Positions 18,824 through 27,941 of a stretch of DNA of 64,000 nt are shown one piece after another. Every line of letters starts with the position of its first letter. Positions within the stretch are counted from its first letter, which is position 1. The notes below the pieces were generated by a model. That model saw only the letters and a list, made by a program, of their open reading frames with translations, was not told the origin of the DNA and did no database searches. Location of the stretch: assembly GCA_030429235.1 (NCBI GenBank), contig JAUIDB010000008.1, forward strand, positions 1 to 64,000, read 5' to 3'. The DNA comes from Thermoanaerobaculia bacterium. Lineage in GTDB: Bacteria; Acidobacteriota; Thermoanaerobaculia; Multivoradales; JAIOJS01. The position numbers and the translations under genes were made by a program.

Positions 18824-20299
18824 TCAGCCGACCTCGCGTTCGTGGACCATCGGGTCGGTCAGCACCCGATAGTAGTGCCGGGATCCGTAGCGCCCCAGGT
18901 TGGTGACTCGCGAGGTGTAGAGGCAGGCGAAATCGTCGACCTGCGACCCGAACAGGCTCTGGCTGGCTCCCTGGCGGAAGACCGATCCCCAGGTCGGGTT
19001 GTAGGTCATCTCGTTGTTCGTTCCCAACTCCCGAGCGCGATGTCGGAGCGCCAGGTGGTCCCGCTCCAGGGTCTCGAGCGCCGGCCGGGCCGCGGCGATC
19101 GCCTGGTGCAGGTCGGACGGCAACTGTTCGCCGAGGGAGTCGGCGAGGAGCAGCACGTCGCGAAGATCGTCCATCTGGTGCCCCATCGAGTTGAGTTCGT
19201 TCTTGAGTTCCGACAGGCGTCGCAGCTGCGGGTGGATCTGCAGCTGATCGCTCAGCTCCTCTTCGAGCTCGTCGACGATGAGGGCCGTCCGCCAAGTCGA
19301 ACTCAGTTTGCTGGAGACGATGTCGCCGTAGATGTGGTCGCCGACGTAGAGAACTCCCTCTCCCGGGAGGTCGAGGAGTTCCATCAGCCCAGCCTGGGAG
19401 CCCTGGGCATAGATCTGGCCCCACTCCGGAACCGCGACCTCGGCCCCGGGTTCCCCGGTGGCGGAGAGCGTGACGAAGGGCCGCTTCTTGCGGAAGAAGT
19501 CCGGTTTCCCGGCGCGTACGATCACCAGGTCGAACAGTTCCGGCCAGCGTTCTGGTTCAGGGGTGTCGGCGAAGAGATACCGACACAGGTGGTTGGTATA
19601 GGTCCAGCCCGAGTTGGTGAGCAGGATCAGCCGTCGACCGCCGAGTCGGAGCCGCTCGAGGGTCAGGAGGAGGGCCGGATCTCGGGGTAGGTAACGGGCG
19701 ACGTCGGCGGCGATGGTCTCTTTGAGGGGGCCTTCGGCGTGCACTCCGTCGACGGCGTTGCGCACGTCGCGGAAGAGCTCCGGGTATTCGGGCAGTTCGA
19801 CCTCCCCCTTCAGCTTGAGGTGGACGAGTTCGGCGAACAGGTTGACTTCGGGGAGTTCGAACAGGGTGTCGACCCAGTAGAAGCGCTCACTTCCGAGGTC
19901 GAGTCGGTTCTGGCGGTAGAGCCGCTTCCGCTCCGGGCGATCGAGTTCCTGGCGCCCGAGGTAGGCGCGACCGACGTAGCGATGACGGTCCATCTTGAGG
20001 ACCGCGCCGGCGCGTCGGTCGATGATCAGTCCGCGGTGTGGAAAGTGCGGTCGGAATTCGGTGCGACGAGCGGCCGACGGGTAGTCGTGGTGTTCGAGAA
20101 GTCTCTCGAGGGCCAACTGGAAGATGAGCTCGCCGACCGGAAGGCGATAGTAGGGGGCCAGGGTCCAGTCGAGGTCGAAGCCGATACAGTGGATGTTCTC
20201 CATGCGGAGGGCCCGATTGACGAAGACGCGTCGCTGTGGAGGGGGCTCGCCGTCGTTCAGGGCCTGTCTCAGAAGTTCCTCGGTGCCGGGGGTATTCAT
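18824..20299 (-). CDS. HAD-superfamily 5'-nucleotidase (HAD-IG/cN-II-like)
   Basis: A 491-residue phosphatase with motif I FDLDWTLA (nucleophile Asp42, general acid Asp44), motif II ILLTNSGW, and a C-terminal GDHIYGDIVSSK motif III/IV. The size and this motif set match the HAD-IG family related to eukaryotic cytosolic IMP/GMP nucleotidase. A helical region follows motif IV (about 345-430), as in that family. It probably removes phosphate from purine nucleotides in the cytoplasm. It is monocistronic and converges on the MBL gene. Confidence 0.9.
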   Translation of the reverse strand: MNTPGTEELLRQALNDGEPPPQRRVFVNRALRMENIHCIGFDLDWTLAPYYRLPVGELIFQLALERLLEHHDYPSAARRTEFRPHFPHRGLIIDRRAGAVLKMDRHRYVGRAYLGRQELDRPERKRLYRQNRLDLGSERFYWVDTLFELPEVNLFAELVHLKLKGEVELPEYPELFRDVRNAVDGVHAEGPLKETIAADVARYLPRDPALLLTLERLRLGGRRLILLTNSGWTYTNHLCRYLFADTPEPERWPELFDLVIVRAGKPDFFRKKRPFVTLSATGEPGAEVAVPEWGQIYAQGSQAGLMELLDLPGEGVLYVGDHIYGDIVSSKLSSTWRTALIVDELEEELSDQLQIHPQLRRLSELKNELNSMGHQMDDLRDVLLLADSLGEQLPSDLHQAIAAARPALETLERDHLALRHRARELGTNNEMTYNPTWGSVFRQGASQSLFGSQVDDFACLYTSRVTNLGRYGSRHYYRVLTDPMVHEREVG

Positions 20300-20306
20300 G
20301 CGGCAA

Positions 20307-20312
20307 AGTGTA
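20307..20312 (-). promoter_or_regulatory. -10 box, leaderless type, for the nucleotidase
   Basis: TACACT on the reverse strand ends 7 nt before ATG 20299, with no Shine-Dalgarno. Confidence 0.4.
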
Positions 20313-20360
20313 GCCCGGTGGTCGGTGGTGTGGACACCAGAACTCGCGGTGGGCTGGTTT

Positions 20361-20387
20361 TTGCCGTCGACGATTCAGGTGTATGAT
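20361..20387 (+). promoter_or_regulatory. sigma70-type promoter of the pseudokinase-TonB gene
   Basis: TTGCCG (20361-20366) and TATGAT (20382-20387) are separated by 15 nt, giving a leader of about 60 nt to ATG 20456. GAAAGGGAA is the Shine-Dalgarno. Confidence 0.45.
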
Positions 20388-20455
20388 CGAGCCGTATATT
20401 CGAAGATCACCTCGAGGGTCTCGAGGTTCGAAACCGGGGACGAAAGGGAAACTCG

Positions 20456-22390
20456 ATGAACACGCGCGAGCAATTCGGTAATTACCTCCTTCTGAAGAAG
20501 CTGGGGGAGGATCCCCTCGGTGAGGCGTTCCGGGCCGGCAAGGTCGGCGGCCAGGGCATGGAGGAGGTCGTACTGCTCCGAGTCTTCAACGGCCAGGGCA
20601 TCGACGGTCCCGGCATGTGGAAGACCATCGACGGTCGGCAGGGTGTCCAGCAGGCGTTGACCAGTCCCAATATCGGCAACGGGGTCGACCTGGGAGCCAT
20701 CCGCAACATCCCGTACGTCGCGTACGACTACCTCTCGGGCAAGAATCTGGCCAACCTCCTGCAACAGGCCAGCAAGCGCAAGCACCCGATCCCTTCTGAC
20801 CATGCCCTGTTGATCACCGAACGCATCGCGCTCGGACTCGCGGTCGGTTTCGAGACTCGCTACGAGGCCGGTCGGATTCTCCACGGCTGTGTGGTTCCCA
20901 ACCTGGTCATCATCTCCAACGAGGGAGAGACGCGCCTCCTCGGATTCGAAGTGGCGCCCGGGCTGCGGCAAGCCATCGTGCAGAACCCCTCGCATCCGCT
21001 CGGACGCTACCTGGCTCCCGAGGCGCGCGCCGGCCAGCCGGTCGACAAGTCGGACGACGTCTTCTCCCTGGGAGTCATCCTGCTCGAACTGCTCTCTGGC
21101 AAGCCCGTGCCGGTAGGGGCCGACTACGGCGCCCTGATCAACTCTGCCACCATGCAGCCGGACGGAACCCCGGTGCCCGACGACCTCAAGAACCTGATGG
21201 CCCGGAGCCTCGGCTCTCGCGAGCAGCGGATCGGAGACGTGATCCAGTGGCACAAGGCGCTCTCGAAGATGATGTTCGACGGGCAGTACAACCCGACGAC
21301 GTTCAACCTCGCCTTCTACATGCACAACCTCTTCCGCGAGGAGATCGAGAAGGAGAGCAAGGAGATCGAGGTCGAGCGCACGATGGAGATCCCGGTGACG
21401 TCGATCCCCGCCGCGCCTCCGACGGCGGCGGCCGCCGCCGGAGCGGCGACGCCAGCGGCGGGAGGTGATCTGCGCGAGACCACCGGCGTCCGAGAGGATA
21501 CGAGTGTGATCATGGATCGCTACTCGGACGAGGATTCCAAGGGCGGTCCCAACAAAGCGGTCCTGGGAGCGATCGCCGCGGTGCTCATGGTGGCCATCGG
21601 GGCCGGGGCCTACTGGATGAGCCGAGGAGGCGAGGAGCCGGTGACCGAGCCCGAACCGGCCGCTGCCGTCGCCCCCGAGCCGGAGCCGGAACCGGAACCC
21701 GCCGGGCCGACGCCGGAAGAACTCGAGGCTCAGCAGCAGGCCGAAGCCGAACAGGCCGCGGCCGAGCAGGCTGCGCTGGAAGAGCGCATCGCCGCGATCG
21801 TCGATGCCAAGGACAAGGAGCGGGTGGCCGAACTCGAACGGCTGCGGGCCGACCTCGAGACGGCACGTCAACGCGAGGCCGAAGCCGAGAAGGAGCGCCA
21901 GCGACTCGCCGAGGCCGCAGCCGCCCAGGCGGCGGCGGAACAGGCCGCGGCCGAGCAGGCCGCCGCTGAACAGGCTGCCGCCGAGCAGGCTGCCGCCGAG
22001 CAGGCCGCCGCCGAGCAGGAGGCCGCCGCCGAGATTCAGCAGGTCGCCGAGGCCGAGCCTCCGCCCCCGGAGCCGAAGAAGCCCGAAGTCAAGACGGGCG
22101 ACCTCGTCACTCTGGGCCCGGGGGTTACCGTGCCCAAGTTCATCACCATGAGGCCGGTGACCTATCCGGCCATGGCTCGTCGGCTTCGCAAGGAGAGCAC
22201 GGTCGTCGTCAGCTGCCTGGTCGACGAAAACGGCAACGTCAGCGAGACCAAGCTGAAGGGCCGTGAGGTCGGATTCGGTATGGATAGCGAGGCGCTGGCC
22301 GCCGCCAAGACCGCCCGCTTCAATCCCGCCACCAAGAACGGCGTTCGCGTCAAGATCTGGTGGGATCTGCCGATCAAGTTCACGCTCTAG
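20456..22390 (+). CDS. transmembrane pseudokinase with periplasmic TonB C-terminal domain
   Basis: A 644-residue single-pass protein. Residues 8-275 keep the protein kinase fold (APE as LAPEA at 186-190; helix F SDDVFSLGVILLELLSG at 199-215). The catalytic residues are lost: beta3 Lys is Arg42, HRD is HGC (143-145) with Asp replaced by Cys, the Mg-binding Asn is Leu150, DFG is GFE (163-165) and the glycine loop is broken (GEDPLG). After an Ala/Pro linker come one membrane helix (about 366-388), a PEPEPEP stretch, a charged Ala/Glu/Gln coiled coil with six QAAAE repeats, and a TonB_C domain (about 555-644: YPAMARRLRKESTVVVSCLVDENGNV). The TonB N-terminal SxxxH helix signature is absent. It probably couples a cytoplasmic binding platform to the outer membrane. 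Confidence 0.88.
   Translation: MNTREQFGNYLLLKKLGEDPLGEAFRAGKVGGQGMEEVVLLRVFNGQGIDGPGMWKTIDGRQGVQQALTSPNIGNGVDLGAIRNIPYVAYDYLSGKNLANLLQQASKRKHPIPSDHALLITERIALGLAVGFETRYEAGRILHGCVVPNLVIISNEGETRLLGFEVAPGLRQAIVQNPSHPLGRYLAPEARAGQPVDKSDDVFSLGVILLELLSGKPVPVGADYGALINSATMQPDGTPVPDDLKNLMARSLGSREQRIGDVIQWHKALSKMMFDGQYNPTTFNLAFYMHNLFREEIEKESKEIEVERTMEIPVTSIPAAPPTAAAAAGAATPAAGGDLRETTGVREDTSVIMDRYSDEDSKGGPNKAVLGAIAAVLMVAIGAGAYWMSRGGEEPVTEPEPAAAVAPEPEPEPEPAGPTPEELEAQQQAEAEQAAAEQAALEERIAAIVDAKDKERVAELERLRADLETARQREAEAEKERQRLAEAAAAQAAAEQAAAEQAAAEQAAAEQAAAEQAAAEQEAAAEIQQVAEAEPPPPEPKKPEVKTGDLVTLGPGVTVPKFITMRPVTYPAMARRLRKESTVVVSCLVDENGNVSETKLKGREVGFGMDSEALAAAKTARFNPATKNGVRVKIWWDLPIKFTL
21926..22015 (+). repeat. 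15-bp in-frame repeat encoding QAAAE
   Basis: Six consecutive near-identical 15-nt units (cag/gcc/gcg/gcg/gaa variants) encode QAAAE six times in the periplasmic helix of the pseudokinase-TonB protein. Synonymous differences between units show the array is not brand new. Copy number may vary between strains, which would change the reach of the TonB domain. Confidence 0.85.
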
Positions 22391-22401
22391 TCGACCTGCT
22401 T

Positions 22402-22419
22402 TCCGGCTGTCGGGCCGGA
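22402..22419. terminator. short hairpin in convergent gap
   Basis: TCCGGC and GCCGGA form a 6-bp stem with a 6-nt loop between the converging pseudokinase gene and mltG. There is no T-tract, so termination is only a guess. The rest of 22391-22580 shows nothing recognisable. Confidence 0.25.
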
Positions 22420-22580
22420 GGCTTCAACCGGACGACGGCTCTGCTGTCGGCGTTCGAGGGGGCCCGGGGCGTCGGGGTGGCCAGGGAAGCGGGGTTCGCG
22501 CTGCCCTCAGGTATCGCCCGTTCGGCGCGGCGTACCAGAGTGCTGGTCCGAGACTGAAGGCGGAGACGCTGGGCGGTGGC

Positions 22581-23645
22581 CTAGTCGCCGCCCGGGCTCT
22601 TGGCGGCGCGCTCTTCGGCCCACTTCTTCCGCCAGTAGCGGCGCTGCCACTCTTCGACATTGCGGTTGTGCTCGCGCAGAGTGGCTGCGAAGACGTGGCT
22701 GCCGTCGTTGCGGCTCACGAAGTAGAGGTACGGAACGTCGGCCGGGGCAGCCGCGGCGCGCAGGCTCTGGAGCCCGGGCGAACAGATCGGTCCCGGCGGC
22801 AGCCCCGGATAGAGGTAGGTGTTGTAGGGCGAGTCGATCGCGAGATCACCCTTGCGGATGTTTCCGTCCCAGCGGCCGGCCAGTTTGAGGGCGAAGATGA
22901 CGGTGGGATCGGCGTAGAGCGCGATACCGCGCCGCAGACGATTGGTGTAGACCCCCGCGATGGTGGCTCGTTCGCCGTCGAGGCGGGCCTCCTTCTCGAC
23001 GATGCTGGCCAGAGTGACGACCTGGCGGACTGAACGACCGCTCCCCGGGGGAAGTAGCGGCCGCACCTCGGACTCGTAACGCCGCCGAAAGGTGCGAACC
23101 AGGGTCTCGACGACCGCCGCTTCGTCGGTGCCGTGGGGGAAGTGGTAGGTGTCGGGATGAAGGTAACCCTCGAGGGTCTCGGCCTCGGGATCCAGGTCGA
23201 GGATCGGAGCCGGGTCGCGCATGCGAGCCAGCAGGACCTCGCGGTTGCCGAACCCCTGGTCGGCTAGCTGTTCGGCCGCCTCTTCGAGGTCCAGGCCCTC
23301 GATCAACGTCGCGGATCGGAGGACGACATCGCCGGCGTTGAGCTTCTCGATCACCTCGAGGGGGCTGAGGGCGCGATCGAAGCGATAGCGTCCGGCCTGC
23401 AGGGAGGGACTATCGGTCAGTCGGAGGTGGAGCCGAGCGAGTCGGGCGTCGCGCAGGACACCCGCCTCCTGCAGTTGGTACAGGATGGCCAGCGTTCCCG
23501 TGCCGCTGGCGATCTCGACCTCCACCTCTTCGCTGAAGCCTTGGTACGGGGTGGTCAGTTCGTTCTGAAACCACTGCCAGCCCAGGGCCGCAGCCCCCAG
23601 AGCCAATAGGAGTAGCGCGAGGAGACAGCCGAAGAAGCGCTTCAT
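22581..23645 (-). CDS. mltG: endolytic murein transglycosylase MltG
   Basis: A 354-residue single-pass inner-membrane enzyme (helix 3-24) that cuts nascent glycan strands and so terminates peptidoglycan polymerisation. Diagnostic motifs are LEGYLHPDTYHF (158-169), ASIVEKEA with catalytic Glu217, and SPYNTYLYPGLPPGPI (272-287). A LysM-like region lies at about 40-105. Length is normal. ATG 23645 overlaps the ruvX stop as ATGA, the common ruvX-mltG arrangement. Confidence 0.96.
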   Translation of the reverse strand: MKRFFGCLLALLLLALGAAALGWQWFQNELTTPYQGFSEEVEVEIASGTGTLAILYQLQEAGVLRDARLARLHLRLTDSPSLQAGRYRFDRALSPLEVIEKLNAGDVVLRSATLIEGLDLEEAAEQLADQGFGNREVLLARMRDPAPILDLDPEAETLEGYLHPDTYHFPHGTDEAAVVETLVRTFRRRYESEVRPLLPPGSGRSVRQVVTLASIVEKEARLDGERATIAGVYTNRLRRGIALYADPTVIFALKLAGRWDGNIRKGDLAIDSPYNTYLYPGLPPGPICSPGLQSLRAAAAPADVPYLYFVSRNDGSHVFAATLREHNRNVEEWQRRYWRKKWAEERAAKSPGGD

Positions 23646-24133
23646 TCGGAGGCCTCCTGGCTCCGCGCCAGCGTCTCCTCGAGCAGGATCTGCGCGGCCA
23701 GCTGATCGACCCGTTCGGGGTGCTTGCGGGGGTCGATACCGGCGGATCGCAAGCGCTCTTCGGCCGCGTGGCTGGTGAGGGCCTCGTCGACGAGTCGGTA
23801 GGGAAGAGAACAGCGAGTGGCCAGGCGCTCGGCAAAACGGCGGGCGCGCTCCGCAGCCTCACCGATCGAGCCGTCCAGACGCCGCGGTTCGCCGATCACC
23901 AGCGTACGGACTCCCTCGCGGCGAGTGATCTTCACGAGCTCGGCGATGAGCTGTCGGTCGTTGCGGCGAGGGAGAGTACAGAGGGGCAAAGACAGGGTTC
24001 TTTCGGGGTTGGTGATCGCGACGCCAACCCGCTTTGTACCGTAGTCGATGGCGAGCCAGGGACCGCTGGTCTCTGTGCTACCATCCACGCTCGATTCTGA
24101 GGCGGACGCCGCGCCGCCGGGGTACCGTTCCAT
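23642..24133 (-). CDS. ruvX: Holliday-junction resolvase-like / pre-16S rRNA nuclease
   Basis: This is a YqgF/RuvX-family RNase H-fold protein of up to 163 residues. The core begins with WLAIDYGTKRVGVAI, whose Asp is the first metal ligand, then VIGEPRRLDGS and LVDEALTSHAAEERL with a Glu in the second motif, and RVDQLAAQILLEETL. In E. coli this protein completes 16S rRNA 5'-end maturation. ATG 24133 adds about 25 residues before the core and leaves only 19 nt to the divergent thiolase; GTG 24088 would give a more typical length. Confidence 0.92.
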   Translation of the reverse strand: MERYPGGAASASESSVDGSTETSGPWLAIDYGTKRVGVAITNPERTLSLPLCTLPRRNDRQLIAELVKITRREGVRTLVIGEPRRLDGSIGEAAERARRFAERLATRCSLPYRLVDEALTSHAAEERLRSAGIDPRKHPERVDQLAAQILLEETLARSQEASE

Positions 24134-24152
24134 AGCCACAACCGGAGCTATT

Positions 24153-25331
24153 ATGCAGGATATCGTCATTCTGAGTGCGGCCCGCACGCCGATCGGTTCG
24201 TTCCAGGGAGCCTTCGCATCGCTGCCGGCCCATACGCTCGGAGCGCGAGCTCTCAGCGGTGCCTTCGAGCGCGCCGGGGTCGAGCCCGGAGCGGTCGACC
24301 AGGTCTACATGGGGTGTGTGCTCCCCGCGGGTCAGGGCCAGGCTCCCGCGCGGCAGGCGACGTTGGCAGCGGGATGTCCGTCGAGCACGGGAGCGGTGAC
24401 GGTCAACAAGGTGTGTGGCTCTGGCATGCGAGCCATCATGACCGCTTCCAACGATCTACGCTGTGGTGACTACGAGTTGGTGGCGGCGGGGGGCATGGAG
24501 AGCATGACCCGCGCTCCCTACCTCGCCTCGGGAGTCCGCGACGGTTTGCGACTAGGCCACGGCAAGTTCATCGACGGCATGATCCACGATGGTCTCTGGG
24601 ACCCCTACAACGACCAGCACATGGGGAACTGCGCCGAGCTGTGCGTTCGAGAGTTCGGGTTCACGCGGGAGCAGCAGGACGACTTCGCCCGCGAGAGCTA
24701 TCGGCGCGCGCGGGCCGCAGCCGAGGACGGTCGGTTGGCCGAGGAGATCGTTCCGGTCGAGGTGCCGCAGCGCAAAGGAGACCCGCAGGTGGTCGATCGC
24801 GACGAAGAGCCCTTTCGGTCCGATCTCGACAAGATGGCGCGCCTGCGGCCGGCCTTCGACCGCGAAGGAACGGTGACCGCCGCCAACGCCAGCAAGATCA
24901 ACGACGGGGCAGCGGCGCTGGTACTGACCACCGCGGCCTACGCCGAGTCCCACGGTCTGACACCGATCGCACGGATCCTGGCCCATGCCACGGCGGCCCA
25001 GGATCCGGAGTGGTTCACTACGGCTCCGGTCCCGGCGATGCGGCGGGCCATCGATCGTGCCGGATTGACCCTCGACCAGATCGACCTGTTCGAAGTCAAC
25101 GAAGCGTTCGCGGCCGTCACCATGGCGGCGATGAAGGAACTCGAGTTGCCGGCCGCCAAGGTCAATGTTCGAGGTGGAGCCGTCGCGCTCGGGCATCCGA
25201 TCGGAGCCTCGGGAGCGCGCATCGTCGTGACCCTGCTGCATGCCCTGGCCTCGACCGGAGGCCGATACGGTTGTGCCGGGATCTGCCTGGGGGGCGGCGA
25301 GGCGACCGCCCTGGTCGTCGAGCGCCTGTAG
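24153..25331 (+). CDS. acetyl-CoA C-acetyltransferase (thiolase)
   Basis: A 392-residue degradative/biosynthetic thiolase. The nucleophile Cys88 lies in NKVCGSGM, the second set is [16 protein letters not shown] holds the active-site His, and CLGGGEA near residue 378 holds the second Cys. It joins two acetyl-CoA to acetoacetyl-CoA or splits beta-ketoacyl-CoA. GGAG precedes the ATG by about 5 nt. No beta-oxidation or PHB partners are adjacent. Confidence 0.95.
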
Positions 25332-25349: not shown

Positions 25350-27941
25350 GTGAAGAGAGAGATCGCAGGACTCGTAGTGGCCGTCTGGCTGGTGGCGGGG
25401 CTCGGAAGCGCCGAGCGTGCACCGGCCGCGCCTCGACCTCAGGACGATCTGACCGGCAAGATCTCTTTCTCCCTCCCGATTCCGGTCGAAGACGGAGGCG
25501 GAGAGATCCGCGGCGCCGCCGACCAACTCGACTACAGTGAGGACGGGGGCAGCGCCCTGCTTTCGGGTGATGTCGTCATCGAGTACCAGAACCTCAAGAT
25601 CTCGGCCACCCAGGTCTCGGTGGACCTCGTGCAGCGCACGGTACGGGCTGACGGCGACGTCGTCGTCGACCAGGGGCCGAGTCGGATCACCGGTTCCTCG
25701 GCCGAGTTCGACCTCGACAGCAAGACCGGGTTGATCACCGACGCGGTGGCGGCGGCCGAGGGTGGGTACTTCTTCTCGGGCGACGTGGTGGAGAAAAAAT
25801 CCGATACCACCTACACGATCGTCGACGGGGTCTTTACCGCCTGCGAGGGGGACGTGCCACCGTGGAGCTTCCGGACCCGCAAGGCCGAGATCGAGCTCGA
25901 TGGCTACGCCCGCGTCCGCGGCGCCAGCATGCGGATCAAGTCGCTTCCGATCTTCTACACTCCCTACCTGGTGTGGCCCACGACGACCGACCGGACCTCC
26001 GGCCTGCTGGTGCCGAAGGTGGGGAACTCGAACGACCGCGGAACCTACCTCGGACTGGCCTACTACCACGTCTTCGGTCGGAGCTACGACTCGACCCTCT
26101 ATCTCGACCTGTGGAGCAAGGAGTACTACGGGCTCGGCGCCGAGTTCCGCTACCGCCCCACTCACGAGACGGAAGGCGTACTTCGGGCCTACTCGATCTG
26201 GGACCCGGAGATCGACGATCAGCGCTGGAAGGTGCTCTGGGACCACGAAACCAAGGATCTCCCGTGGGGCTTGCGAGGGGTGCTGCACTACGAGGACTAC
26301 TCCGACTTCCAGTTCTTTCGGGACTTCGAGCGGCAGCTCGACGACAAGTCCAAGAACTCGGTGTACGCGAGCGGATTCGTCAGCGGCAGCTGGGGCAACC
26401 ACTCCTTCAACCTGCTCTTCGATCAGCGGCGCAACTTCAAGAACGAACGTGAGGTCGAGCTGCGCCAGCTGCCCGAGTTGCAGTACCGGTTGCGCTCCCA
26501 GCAACTCGGCGGGTTGCCGTTCTACCTTTCGCTGGACACCAGCGCCCACTACCTGTCGGTCGACCGTAGCGTGACCTACAGCGGCGAGTACTCGCGTGTC
26601 CATCTCGAGCCGAGCCTCAAGGTCCCGCTGTCGAGCCTTCCCTGGCTCTCGGCCTCGGTGACGGTGGGGCAACGCTACACCTGGTACGGCGACAGCATCA
26701 CGACCATCAACGGCCCGACCGAGTTCACCGGCGACTCCCTGGACCGGTCGATTCCGTTCGCCAACGCCGAGATCATCGGGCCGTCGCTCTCTCGGGTGTT
26801 CGAAGGGGGCATGGGGTCCTTCGCCAAGGTGAAGCACATCATCGAACCGCGCTTCGACTACCGCTACGCCGACTCGTTCGACGACGCCGAGCTAGTCCCC
26901 TCGTTCGACGAAATCGACGCGGGGTTCGATGGGCACGAGGGACGGGTGGCGTTGATCAACCGGTTGCTCGGCAAACCTCGCAGCCAGGGGGACGCCGCGG
27001 GCGAGGTTGCGACCGACGAATCGCTCGCCTCTCCGAGTCTGCAGGCCGAACTGGACGCGGCCGACGCCCGGCTCATCTTCGACGACGTCGAGGGAATCTT
27101 CGAGATCGGTGGTGATGTCGTGGCGCCGGTGAGAATCGAGTCTCCGGTGGCGGAGTTCCCCGAGACGGCGCGCGAAGCCGGTGCCGAAGGGGTGGTGGTC
27201 GTGAAGGCGATCATCGACCAGGAAGGGTTCGTGCGGCAGCCGCAGGTCCTCCGTGGAGTCCACCCGGACCTCGACGCCGCGGTGGTCGACGTGATGAGCC
27301 GATGGCGTTTCGAGCCGGCGACCAGGAACGGCGAGCCGGTGGCCGTGTTCGACCGCCTGAGCATGGTCTTCAAGACTGATGTCGGCGAGAAGGCCGCGCG
27401 CGAGATCGCCTCGCTCGAGGTCAGTCGTCGCTACAGTTTCGACGATGCCCGACCGCTGGAGAGTGGCGAAGGGATGGAGTCGGCGTGGGGGCCCTGGCGG
27501 GCGACCCTTCGGGCCTATCCCGGGACACGGTTCGGTTTGCGGCTCGACACGGACTACAGCGACCTCTTCTCGCAGGTGACATCGATCCGCTTGACCAGCA
27601 ACTTCAACCTGGGCGGGGGCAATCGCATCGACCTCTCCTGGTCGCCACAGTACCGGGCGCGGGATGGCGAGACCTTGTCCGACCAGGCATCGCTCGGATT
27701 CCAGTGGGGAATGACCGATCGCCTGACGCTGCGCTCCGCGATCAACTACGACATCGAACGCGACCTGCTTCGCGACCAGCGGCACTTCCTCACCTATCGC
27801 GGAAGCTGCTACACCTTGCGCCTCGAATACCACCAGTCTGAGACCGCGTCGGAGACCCGACGCGACTACCTCTTCTCGGTCGATCTGAAGAACGTCGGCA
27901 CCTTCCTCGACATCACGGGCGGCCGTTCTTCTCGACCCTAA
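25350..27941 (+). CDS. lptD: LPS-assembly protein LptD with internal TonB C-terminal domain
   Basis: An 863-residue outer-membrane protein with a signal peptide (about 1-27). Residues 50-160 form the OstA/LptA-like beta-jellyroll that receives LPS; the barrel follows with family motifs IFYTPYLVWP, RTSGLLVP and IIEPRFDYRY. The only two cysteines, Cys165 and Cys820, correspond to the interdomain disulfide pair positions. Residues about 588-677 are a typical TonB_C domain (FPETAREAGAEGVVVVK, IDQEGFVRQPQVLRG, RWRFEPATRNGEPV) set between the strand ending INRLLGK and the strand EIASLEVSRRYSF. The reading frame is continuous. GAGGAG precedes GTG 25350. It follows the thiolase by 18 nt. Confidence 0.93.
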   Translation: MKREIAGLVVAVWLVAGLGSAERAPAAPRPQDDLTGKISFSLPIPVEDGGGEIRGAADQLDYSEDGGSALLSGDVVIEYQNLKISATQVSVDLVQRTVRADGDVVVDQGPSRITGSSAEFDLDSKTGLITDAVAAAEGGYFFSGDVVEKKSDTTYTIVDGVFTACEGDVPPWSFRTRKAEIELDGYARVRGASMRIKSLPIFYTPYLVWPTTTDRTSGLLVPKVGNSNDRGTYLGLAYYHVFGRSYDSTLYLDLWSKEYYGLGAEFRYRPTHETEGVLRAYSIWDPEIDDQRWKVLWDHETKDLPWGLRGVLHYEDYSDFQFFRDFERQLDDKSKNSVYASGFVSGSWGNHSFNLLFDQRRNFKNEREVELRQLPELQYRLRSQQLGGLPFYLSLDTSAHYLSVDRSVTYSGEYSRVHLEPSLKVPLSSLPWLSASVTVGQRYTWYGDSITTINGPTEFTGDSLDRSIPFANAEIIGPSLSRVFEGGMGSFAKVKHIIEPRFDYRYADSFDDAELVPSFDEIDAGFDGHEGRVALINRLLGKPRSQGDAAGEVATDESLASPSLQAELDAADARLIFDDVEGIFEIGGDVVAPVRIESPVAEFPETAREAGAEGVVVVKAIIDQEGFVRQPQVLRGVHPDLDAAVVDVMSRWRFEPATRNGEPVAVFDRLSMVFKTDVGEKAAREIASLEVSRRYSFDDARPLESGEGMESAWGPWRATLRAYPGTRFGLRLDTDYSDLFSQVTSIRLTSNFNLGGGNRIDLSWSPQYRARDGETLSDQASLGFQWGMTDRLTLRSAINYDIERDLLRDQRHFLTYRGSCYTLRLEYHQSETASETRRDYLFSVDLKNVGTFLDITGGRSSRP

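Follow-up and report, generated by a model that had tools for sequence, protein, structure and literature searches.

Bacterial pseudokinases have been little studied. A 2025 review recognizes seven families, and the portion of its text open to a word search mentions neither Acidobacteriota nor TonB (PMC12599244). The same portion describes the mycobacterial MviN pseudokinase as acting with PknB and FhaA in peptidoglycan control (PMC12599244), and in streptococci, according to the accessible passages of a second paper, the STK substrates DivIVA and EloR act on MltG (PMC10269899). By analogy, these two precedents make such control possible elsewhere; they are not evidence for it at the locus described here. 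ExbB/D-driven TonB and TolA, as portrayed in an excerpt of a third source, carry in their membrane helix an SHLS motif whose His is essential (PMC8928145). The protein reported here belongs to a new pseudokinase family: transmembrane pseudokinases are already known from bacteria, but its fusion to a TonB_C domain is unreported in the literature searched, and our search of open-access papers returned no description of such a fusion or family.

The window, a stretch of 64,000 nucleotides from a Thermoanaerobaculia genome, encodes this protein on the forward strand at 20456..22390 (644 aa, ATG start), as judged from the open reading frame, Pfam matches, and orthologues. All of its parts lie on the same strand. 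The kinase-fold domain (residues 1-278; 20456..21289), delimited by structure models and by Foldseek and VIA matches, is matched by Pfam Pkinase over residues 67-218 (E of 3.3e-9, above the cut-off). It is followed by a helix pair that defines the family (residues 279-309; 21290..21382; window letters NPTTFNLAFYMHNLFREEIEKESKEIEVERT), recognized by conservation and in the model; by a membrane helix that contains no His (residues 367-388; 21554..21619), which is the single strong hydrophobic segment of the protein; by a disordered Pro-Glu-rich segment (residues 389-419; 21620..21712); and by an unbroken periplasmic helix of about 100 residues that carries QAAAE repeats (residues 420-520; 21713..22015), these last three being features of the full-length model. 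The TonB_C domain closes the protein (residues 568-644; 22157..22387; E of 6.8e-16, 58.9 bits versus a cut-off of 24.6) and is modeled confidently. The TonB family model TIGR01352 is passed as well (53.2 bits versus 27.1), and the TolA model is not (18.2 bits versus 59.45). We infer that the N terminus is cytoplasmic and TonB_C periplasmic; at 1.5 angstroms per residue, the helix of the periplasmic arm would be about 150 angstroms long.

Structure prediction, which the initial annotation had proposed as a check, yields a confident kinase fold: modeled from 65 family members, residues 1-312 reach a mean pLDDT of 95.4 and a pTM of 0.93. The top Foldseek matches of the modeled domain in the PDB are all protein kinases, and comparison with solved structures in VIA gives Z scores of 26.0 for MAP2K6, the best match, and 24.6 for Mycobacterium tuberculosis PknI; the Foldseek and VIA matches are kinase folds only, with none of them singled out as a pseudokinase, an outcome that tells against no reading. 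The fold thus modeled and matched to solved kinases retains APE (residues 187-189) and the helix-F Asp (D201), as had been claimed. The full-length model (pLDDT of 85.9, pTM of 0.60) shows the pseudokinase, disorder, the helix at 367-388, disorder, the helix at 420-520, disorder, and TonB_C, with the relative placement of these parts left undefined. Hydrophobicity, Pfam, and this model together bear out the annotated order of one membrane helix, an extended segment, and TonB_C, and the fusion of a transmembrane pseudokinase to TonB_C is both real and conserved in that form: Pfam detects Pkinase in 61/65 and TonB_C in 58/65 of the aligned members, and several of the members without one or the other match stop at a contig edge. 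An apparent CsgG/LpoB fusion in one member (L142) was rejected, as an assembly gap of Ns lets the frame read on into the downstream gene; alignment A4, the Pfam count of the 65 members, and the full-length model all still include this read-through row.

The catalytic site is lost throughout. In alignments, R42 (20579..20581) occupies the position of the ATP-binding beta3 Lys; the degenerate catalytic loop, from H143-G144-C145 to L150 (20882..20905), has lost both the HRD Asp and the loop Asn; and G163-F164-E165 (20942..20950) replaces DFG. Aligned with solved kinases, H143-G144-C145-V-V147-P-N-L150 pairs with HRDIKPQN, so that G144-C145 falls on the R-D of HRD, V147 on the loop Lys, and L150 on the loop Asn; G163-F164-E165 pairs with DFG. 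The losses of the beta3 Lys, HRD Asp, loop Asn, and DFG were numbered correctly in the initial annotation. The Gly loop is likewise degenerate (G17 is variable and G22 invariant among 29 orthologues). Across the 65 aligned rows, position 145 is F in 42, L in 12, C in 4, M in 3, A in 3, and Y in 1, and Asp in 0/65; Asp occurs at position 163 in 4 rows, Lys at 42 in 4, and Asn at 150 in 3, so that isolated ancestral catalytic residues persist in scattered members but the HRD Asp persists in none. The polar columns of the kinase fold that are more than 80% conserved include D201 (the structural Asp of helix F), H143, R26, and E189 (of APE); in the same 65 rows, no conserved polar column coincides with the DFG, HRD-Asp, or loop-Asn positions, and no conserved acidic set able to hold Mg is left. 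R42 is kept in 35/65 rows and E165 in 31/65, both being well kept within the order. Judged from alignments and models, the kinase fold is predicted to be unable to work as a normal kinase.

The best-conserved stretch of the family is a helical motif directly after the kinase fold, PTTFNLAFFMHxLFR, in which F283 and L285 are invariant among the 65 rows and T282, N284, A286, H290, and E307 exceed 90%; the model of residues 1-312 places helices at 282-292 and 294-308. This most conserved part of the protein (residues 282-309) had been overlooked in the first reading. Because the scan pattern holds part of the FNLAF motif, its conservation in the scanned set is biased; nearly all orthologues found by the order-level search, in which no motif pattern was used, show the same motif.

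Conservation extends well beyond the genus. Compared with its same-genus orthologue, the kinase domain in the window has a dN of 0.101 and a dS of 1.265 (NG86; dN/dS of about 0.08), and purifying selection on it is strong. A search of the order gave a match in 59/59 genomes, its own included, a count into which ordinary kinases enter; most families of the order have orthologues, with identities of 36-79%, and one genus (g3) gives weak matches only. At the class level, 102/119 genomes match at an E of <=1e-30, with the active class B kinases described below included, and among the matches listed, 92/119 genomes match at an E of <=1.2e-73 in a frame of <800 aa, which identifies the pseudokinase; all 17 genomes without a match at an E of <=1e-30 belong to g3 (17/17). 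In 297 genomes across the phylum, the post-kinase region was matched in 94 at an E of <=1e-3 and in 86 at an E of <=1e-9, the weak matches among them including class B kinases. The family would be older than the class in which it was found.

Members for alignment came from a profile search of genome contigs with an orthologue profile (the best 80 of 123 loci) that used the patterns F[ND]LAF[FY][ML]H and DD[VI][YF]S[LV]G..., which miss members that have neither. Among the best 80, 74 loci bear the motif, under record titles of Thermoanaerobaculia, Holophagales/Holophagae, Vicinamibacteria, and unclassified Acidobacteriota, with two cultured strains, Sulfidibacter corallicola and Acanthopleuribacter pedis, among them; L122 carries the title Deltaproteobacteria and L119 "uncultured bacterium." Six loci were dropped from the family count, namely, the motif-less L159 and L166 (paralogues with a kinase fold but no HRD) and L184, L185, and L188 (active kinases), together with L186 (active type, with HCD). 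Left out before alignment A3 were 5/75 motif-bearing loci whose N terminus was missing or whose length was <240 aa, plus 6 near-duplicates. Further pseudokinase paralogues, with no TonB_C in the frame seen, occur as L046 (genome G006), L058 and L159 (G033), and L166; the FNLAF motif is missing from L058, L159, and L166. Among 200 genomes of Pseudomonadota, searched with no positive control, 0 had members, an empty result that carries no weight. In the phylum of a Planctomycetota record (weak matches in 38/149), the 7 loci examined were rejected as members: they are kinases with a short tail reading YGPT...L..Y...LF, and HRD is intact in 6/6 of those whose length takes in the catalytic loop.

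The closest active kinase to the pseudokinase is a paralogue that we call class B (26-37% identity), which has the same layout and an active-type site with AIK, HRD, and DFG intact in 8 rows; the layout is therefore independent of catalytic loss. Class B is present as one copy per genome in the genomes examined, and many genomes hold both proteins. In a kinase-domain tree (n=66), 29 pseudokinase rows fall on one side of a branch with support of 100/99, and class B is placed between these rows and a further 30 kinases from this genome. The initial annotation had held that homologs of the same architecture retaining Lys/Asp/Asp would point to a normal kinase degraded by error; such paralogues do exist, in the 8 class B rows, but since these branch separately and no orthologue is active, the window copy was not degraded by error. 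We infer that the pseudokinase derives from a class-B-like active kinase, its tail then becoming the most constrained part.

Wall-related genes recur beside the family. In the window, the gene is convergent with that of MltG, a YceG-like lytic transglycosylase (22581..23645, minus strand; Pfam and conserved neighbor), beyond which lie RuvX/YqgF (23642..24187, minus strand), a thiolase whose mechanically called start overlaps RuvX (24048..25331, plus strand), each assigned by Pfam and gene order, and LptD with an inserted TonB_C at its residues 602-667 (25350..27941, plus strand; Pfam and comparison). In relatives, LptD and the thiolase share one strand, and the opposite strand carries RuvX, MltG, and the pseudokinase side by side and co-directional. 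Relative to the same-genus locus L109 (JAIOJS010000028.1), the gene and its upstream region (20275-22605) are inverted in place and both neighbors are unturned; with the pseudokinase gene inverted relative to mltG, the two share no transcript here. Directly upstream on the same strand and within 1.5 kb, mltG is found in 43/69 loci and is absent from that position in the remaining 26/69, the 69 being those with at least 1300 bases upstream; a motif filter omitted 12 loci whose motif departs from the pattern (L203-L208, L210, L214-L218), none of which had 1300 bases upstream. Among 39 loci, the flank on the MltG side is retained more than the other flank in kinase-domain pairs that are 50-70% identical (64/79 versus 25/79), 35-50% identical (102/139 versus 53/139), and <35% identical (101/503 versus 6/503); gene order here comes from mechanical ORFs in GC-rich DNA, where shadow ORFs affect both sides alike.

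A different transglycosylase, SLT, follows the gene in the Acanthopleuribacter/Sulfidibacter clade (L170, L172, L174, L176, L178, and L182; 6/6 by Pfam). MurF-Alr and Ddl precede the pseudokinase gene in L174 and L176 (by Pfam) and in L178 (by sequence cluster), and FtsX with an FtsE-type ABC ATPase follows in L170. Elsewhere, LptC/LptA-like genes are neighbors at L169 and L171 and an ATP-synthase-B-like gene at L175, and at some loci beside an ATP-synthase-type gene or EF-G, no wall genes were seen; further loci have no informative neighbors. These peptidoglycan-enzyme neighbors (MltG; SLT, MurF-Alr, and Ddl) had gone unnoticed in the first reading. The two transglycosylase links probably represent only two independent events, and because RuvX-MltG-LptD form a stable block in their own right, simple synteny may account for some of the linkage. 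Genus g3, of the same order, has lost the pseudokinase in 17/17 genomes and retained mltG-ruvX, from which it follows that MltG does not need the pseudokinase; in g3 (G003, G011, and others), a small multihelix, membrane-like protein, presumably DUF420-like, stands next to MltG instead. The peptidoglycan link read from gene order is repeated but circumstantial. The TonB_C insertion of the neighboring LptD sits in the barrel part; no matching segment was found in the LptD frames of relatives (0/34 and 0/24, in overlapping sets), and the same-genus LptD shares it (70% identical over the full length, with no stop). The insertion is specific to the genus, and the protein that carries it is an essential one of the outer membrane.

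Since the inactive design recurs across Acidobacteriota, in many cases next to an enzyme that cuts the cell wall, the protein probably has a control function in the cell envelope, and its gene is unlikely to be a broken one. With moderate confidence, we propose that it is a conserved noncatalytic, trans-envelope signaling scaffold tied to peptidoglycan remodeling that acts without phosphotransfer and without ExbB/D. The pseudokinase would bind a cytoplasmic partner, for which the active class B kinase with its like layout is a candidate; the post-kinase helices would hand the bound or dimer state on to the membrane helix; and, by means of TonB_C, the periplasmic arm would place or regulate peptidoglycan-remodeling enzymes, MltG first, the scaffold needing neither phosphotransfer nor ExbB/D to act. 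This genome (4.85 Mb) has 62 Pkinase, 20 FHA, and 12 TonB_C matches; with kinases and FHA domains, which are partners of phospho-signaling, so abundant, the juxtamembrane linker may have a phospho-dependent partner. More speculatively, and with considerable doubt, the family might constitute a phylum-wide, envelope-spanning mechanical or allosteric relay, in which cytoplasmic binding would pass through the FNLAFFMH helix pair and the arm to TonB_C and set the place or activity of a transglycosylase, again independently of phosphotransfer and ExbB/D, with the active kinase-TonB_C paralogue as its catalytic counterpart.

Other readings account for parts of this evidence. The protein could mainly be an allosteric partner of class B, as a heterodimer or decoy, the MltG gene order being incidental; we consider this unlikely, although the shared layout down to TonB_C, the closeness in sequence, the intermediate place of class B in the tree, the many genomes holding both, and the absence of both from g3 (E of <=1e-30, 17/17) all speak for it. 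The two share no locus (contigs 21 and 75 in this genome), and g3 has few kinase matches overall (1-5 versus about 20), so that the co-loss may belong to a general loss. The initial annotation instead saw a transducer resembling TonB or TolA, driven by the pseudokinase in place of ExbB/D and reaching an outer-membrane receptor, an idea that TonB_C, an arm roughly spanning the periplasm, and the His-less membrane helix would suit but that we regard as improbable: the loci examined have no conserved TonB-dependent receptor or porin neighbor, LptD is near but divergently oriented and in a general block, a pseudokinase supplies no energy source, and TonB_C occurs in many fusions, 12 in this genome. 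Its suggested transmission to the outer membrane finds no partner and is unsupported, and its "new receptor class" has neither a ligand domain nor receptor evidence behind it.

That ExbB/D energization has been replaced receives only indirect backing, as the membrane helix does not have the His used by TonB and TolA and present in the genome's own canonical TonB (FHLIVG), which is encoded near two ExbD genes. Conversely, the protein might still use ExbB/D as TonB does, the pseudokinase being a regulatory addition. The genome does encode ExbD (3 matches, on contigs 37 and 75 only), but the pseudokinase gene, on contig 21, is not near these exbD genes, and a His occurs in the membrane helix of 1/75 family segments, which renders this reading highly improbable; the His control is imperfect, in that the genome's own TonB has the His yet misses the full S-H-L-S spacing, and the complete SHLS pattern was for that reason discarded as an uninformative test of ExbB coupling and only the His used. 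Some other pseudokinases have a nonkinase activity, such as AMP transfer. Such an activity of this domain would fit the good retention of R42 and E165 inside the order, but the wider family conserves neither of these residues, nor any set able to hold a metal, and we give it a very slight chance. Lastly, the inversion relative to the same-genus relative might raise the suspicion of an assembly artifact or of a gene decaying toward loss; the low dN/dS and the full-length orthologues with the same losses in many families rule out a pseudogene or sequencing error and reduce this probability to almost nil.

The scaffold that we favor would connect a kinase fold in the cytoplasm with a TonB_C domain in the periplasm in bacteria of the Gram-negative type, with a repeated genomic link to lytic transglycosylases, and would add a further family to the known pseudokinases. 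Its near-invariant post-kinase motif is a clear handle; together with the carrier strains named above, it makes control of wall growth by a pseudokinase testable outside Actinobacteria and Firmicutes.

Compared with known systems, the protein shares a C-terminal TonB_C and a long arm with TonB and TolA and differs from them in the kinase fold before the membrane helix, the absence of His from that helix, and its distance from the exbD genes. The pseudokinase domain of MviN (ActPs3, Actinobacteria), compared by description only, is, in the available text, likewise membrane bound, devoid of all three catalytic motifs, and linked to peptidoglycan, but it is part of a MurJ/MviN protein and signals via PknB and FhaA (PMC12599244), whereas the present protein has a single membrane helix, a long arm, and TonB_C and occurs in Acidobacteriota. 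GLW pseudokinases of Proteobacteria, as the same text presents them, also have a C-terminal membrane helix and hydrophobic active-site residues (PMC12599244); there, GLW replaces HRD, while here the motif is H-G-[F/L/C/M/A/Y], with W at the third position in 0/65. The PASTA Ser/Thr kinases (PknB/StkP/Stk1) provide the best solved-structure matches by sequence and share the succession of cytoplasmic kinase, membrane helix, and outside domain, from which the pseudokinase departs in its inactive site and its lack of PASTA repeats (NCBIfam PknB_PASTA_kin, 77.8 bits versus a cut-off of 450). Class B (contig 75, 53359-55335) likewise runs from a kinase through a membrane helix and an arm that is acidic/Pro-rich and helical to TonB_C; it is set apart by its intact AIK, HRD, and DFG, a long N-terminal extension, no more than a faint trace of the post-kinase motif, and, in this genome, a position (contig 75, 53359-59869; L055) near two ExbD genes and the canonical TonB gene.
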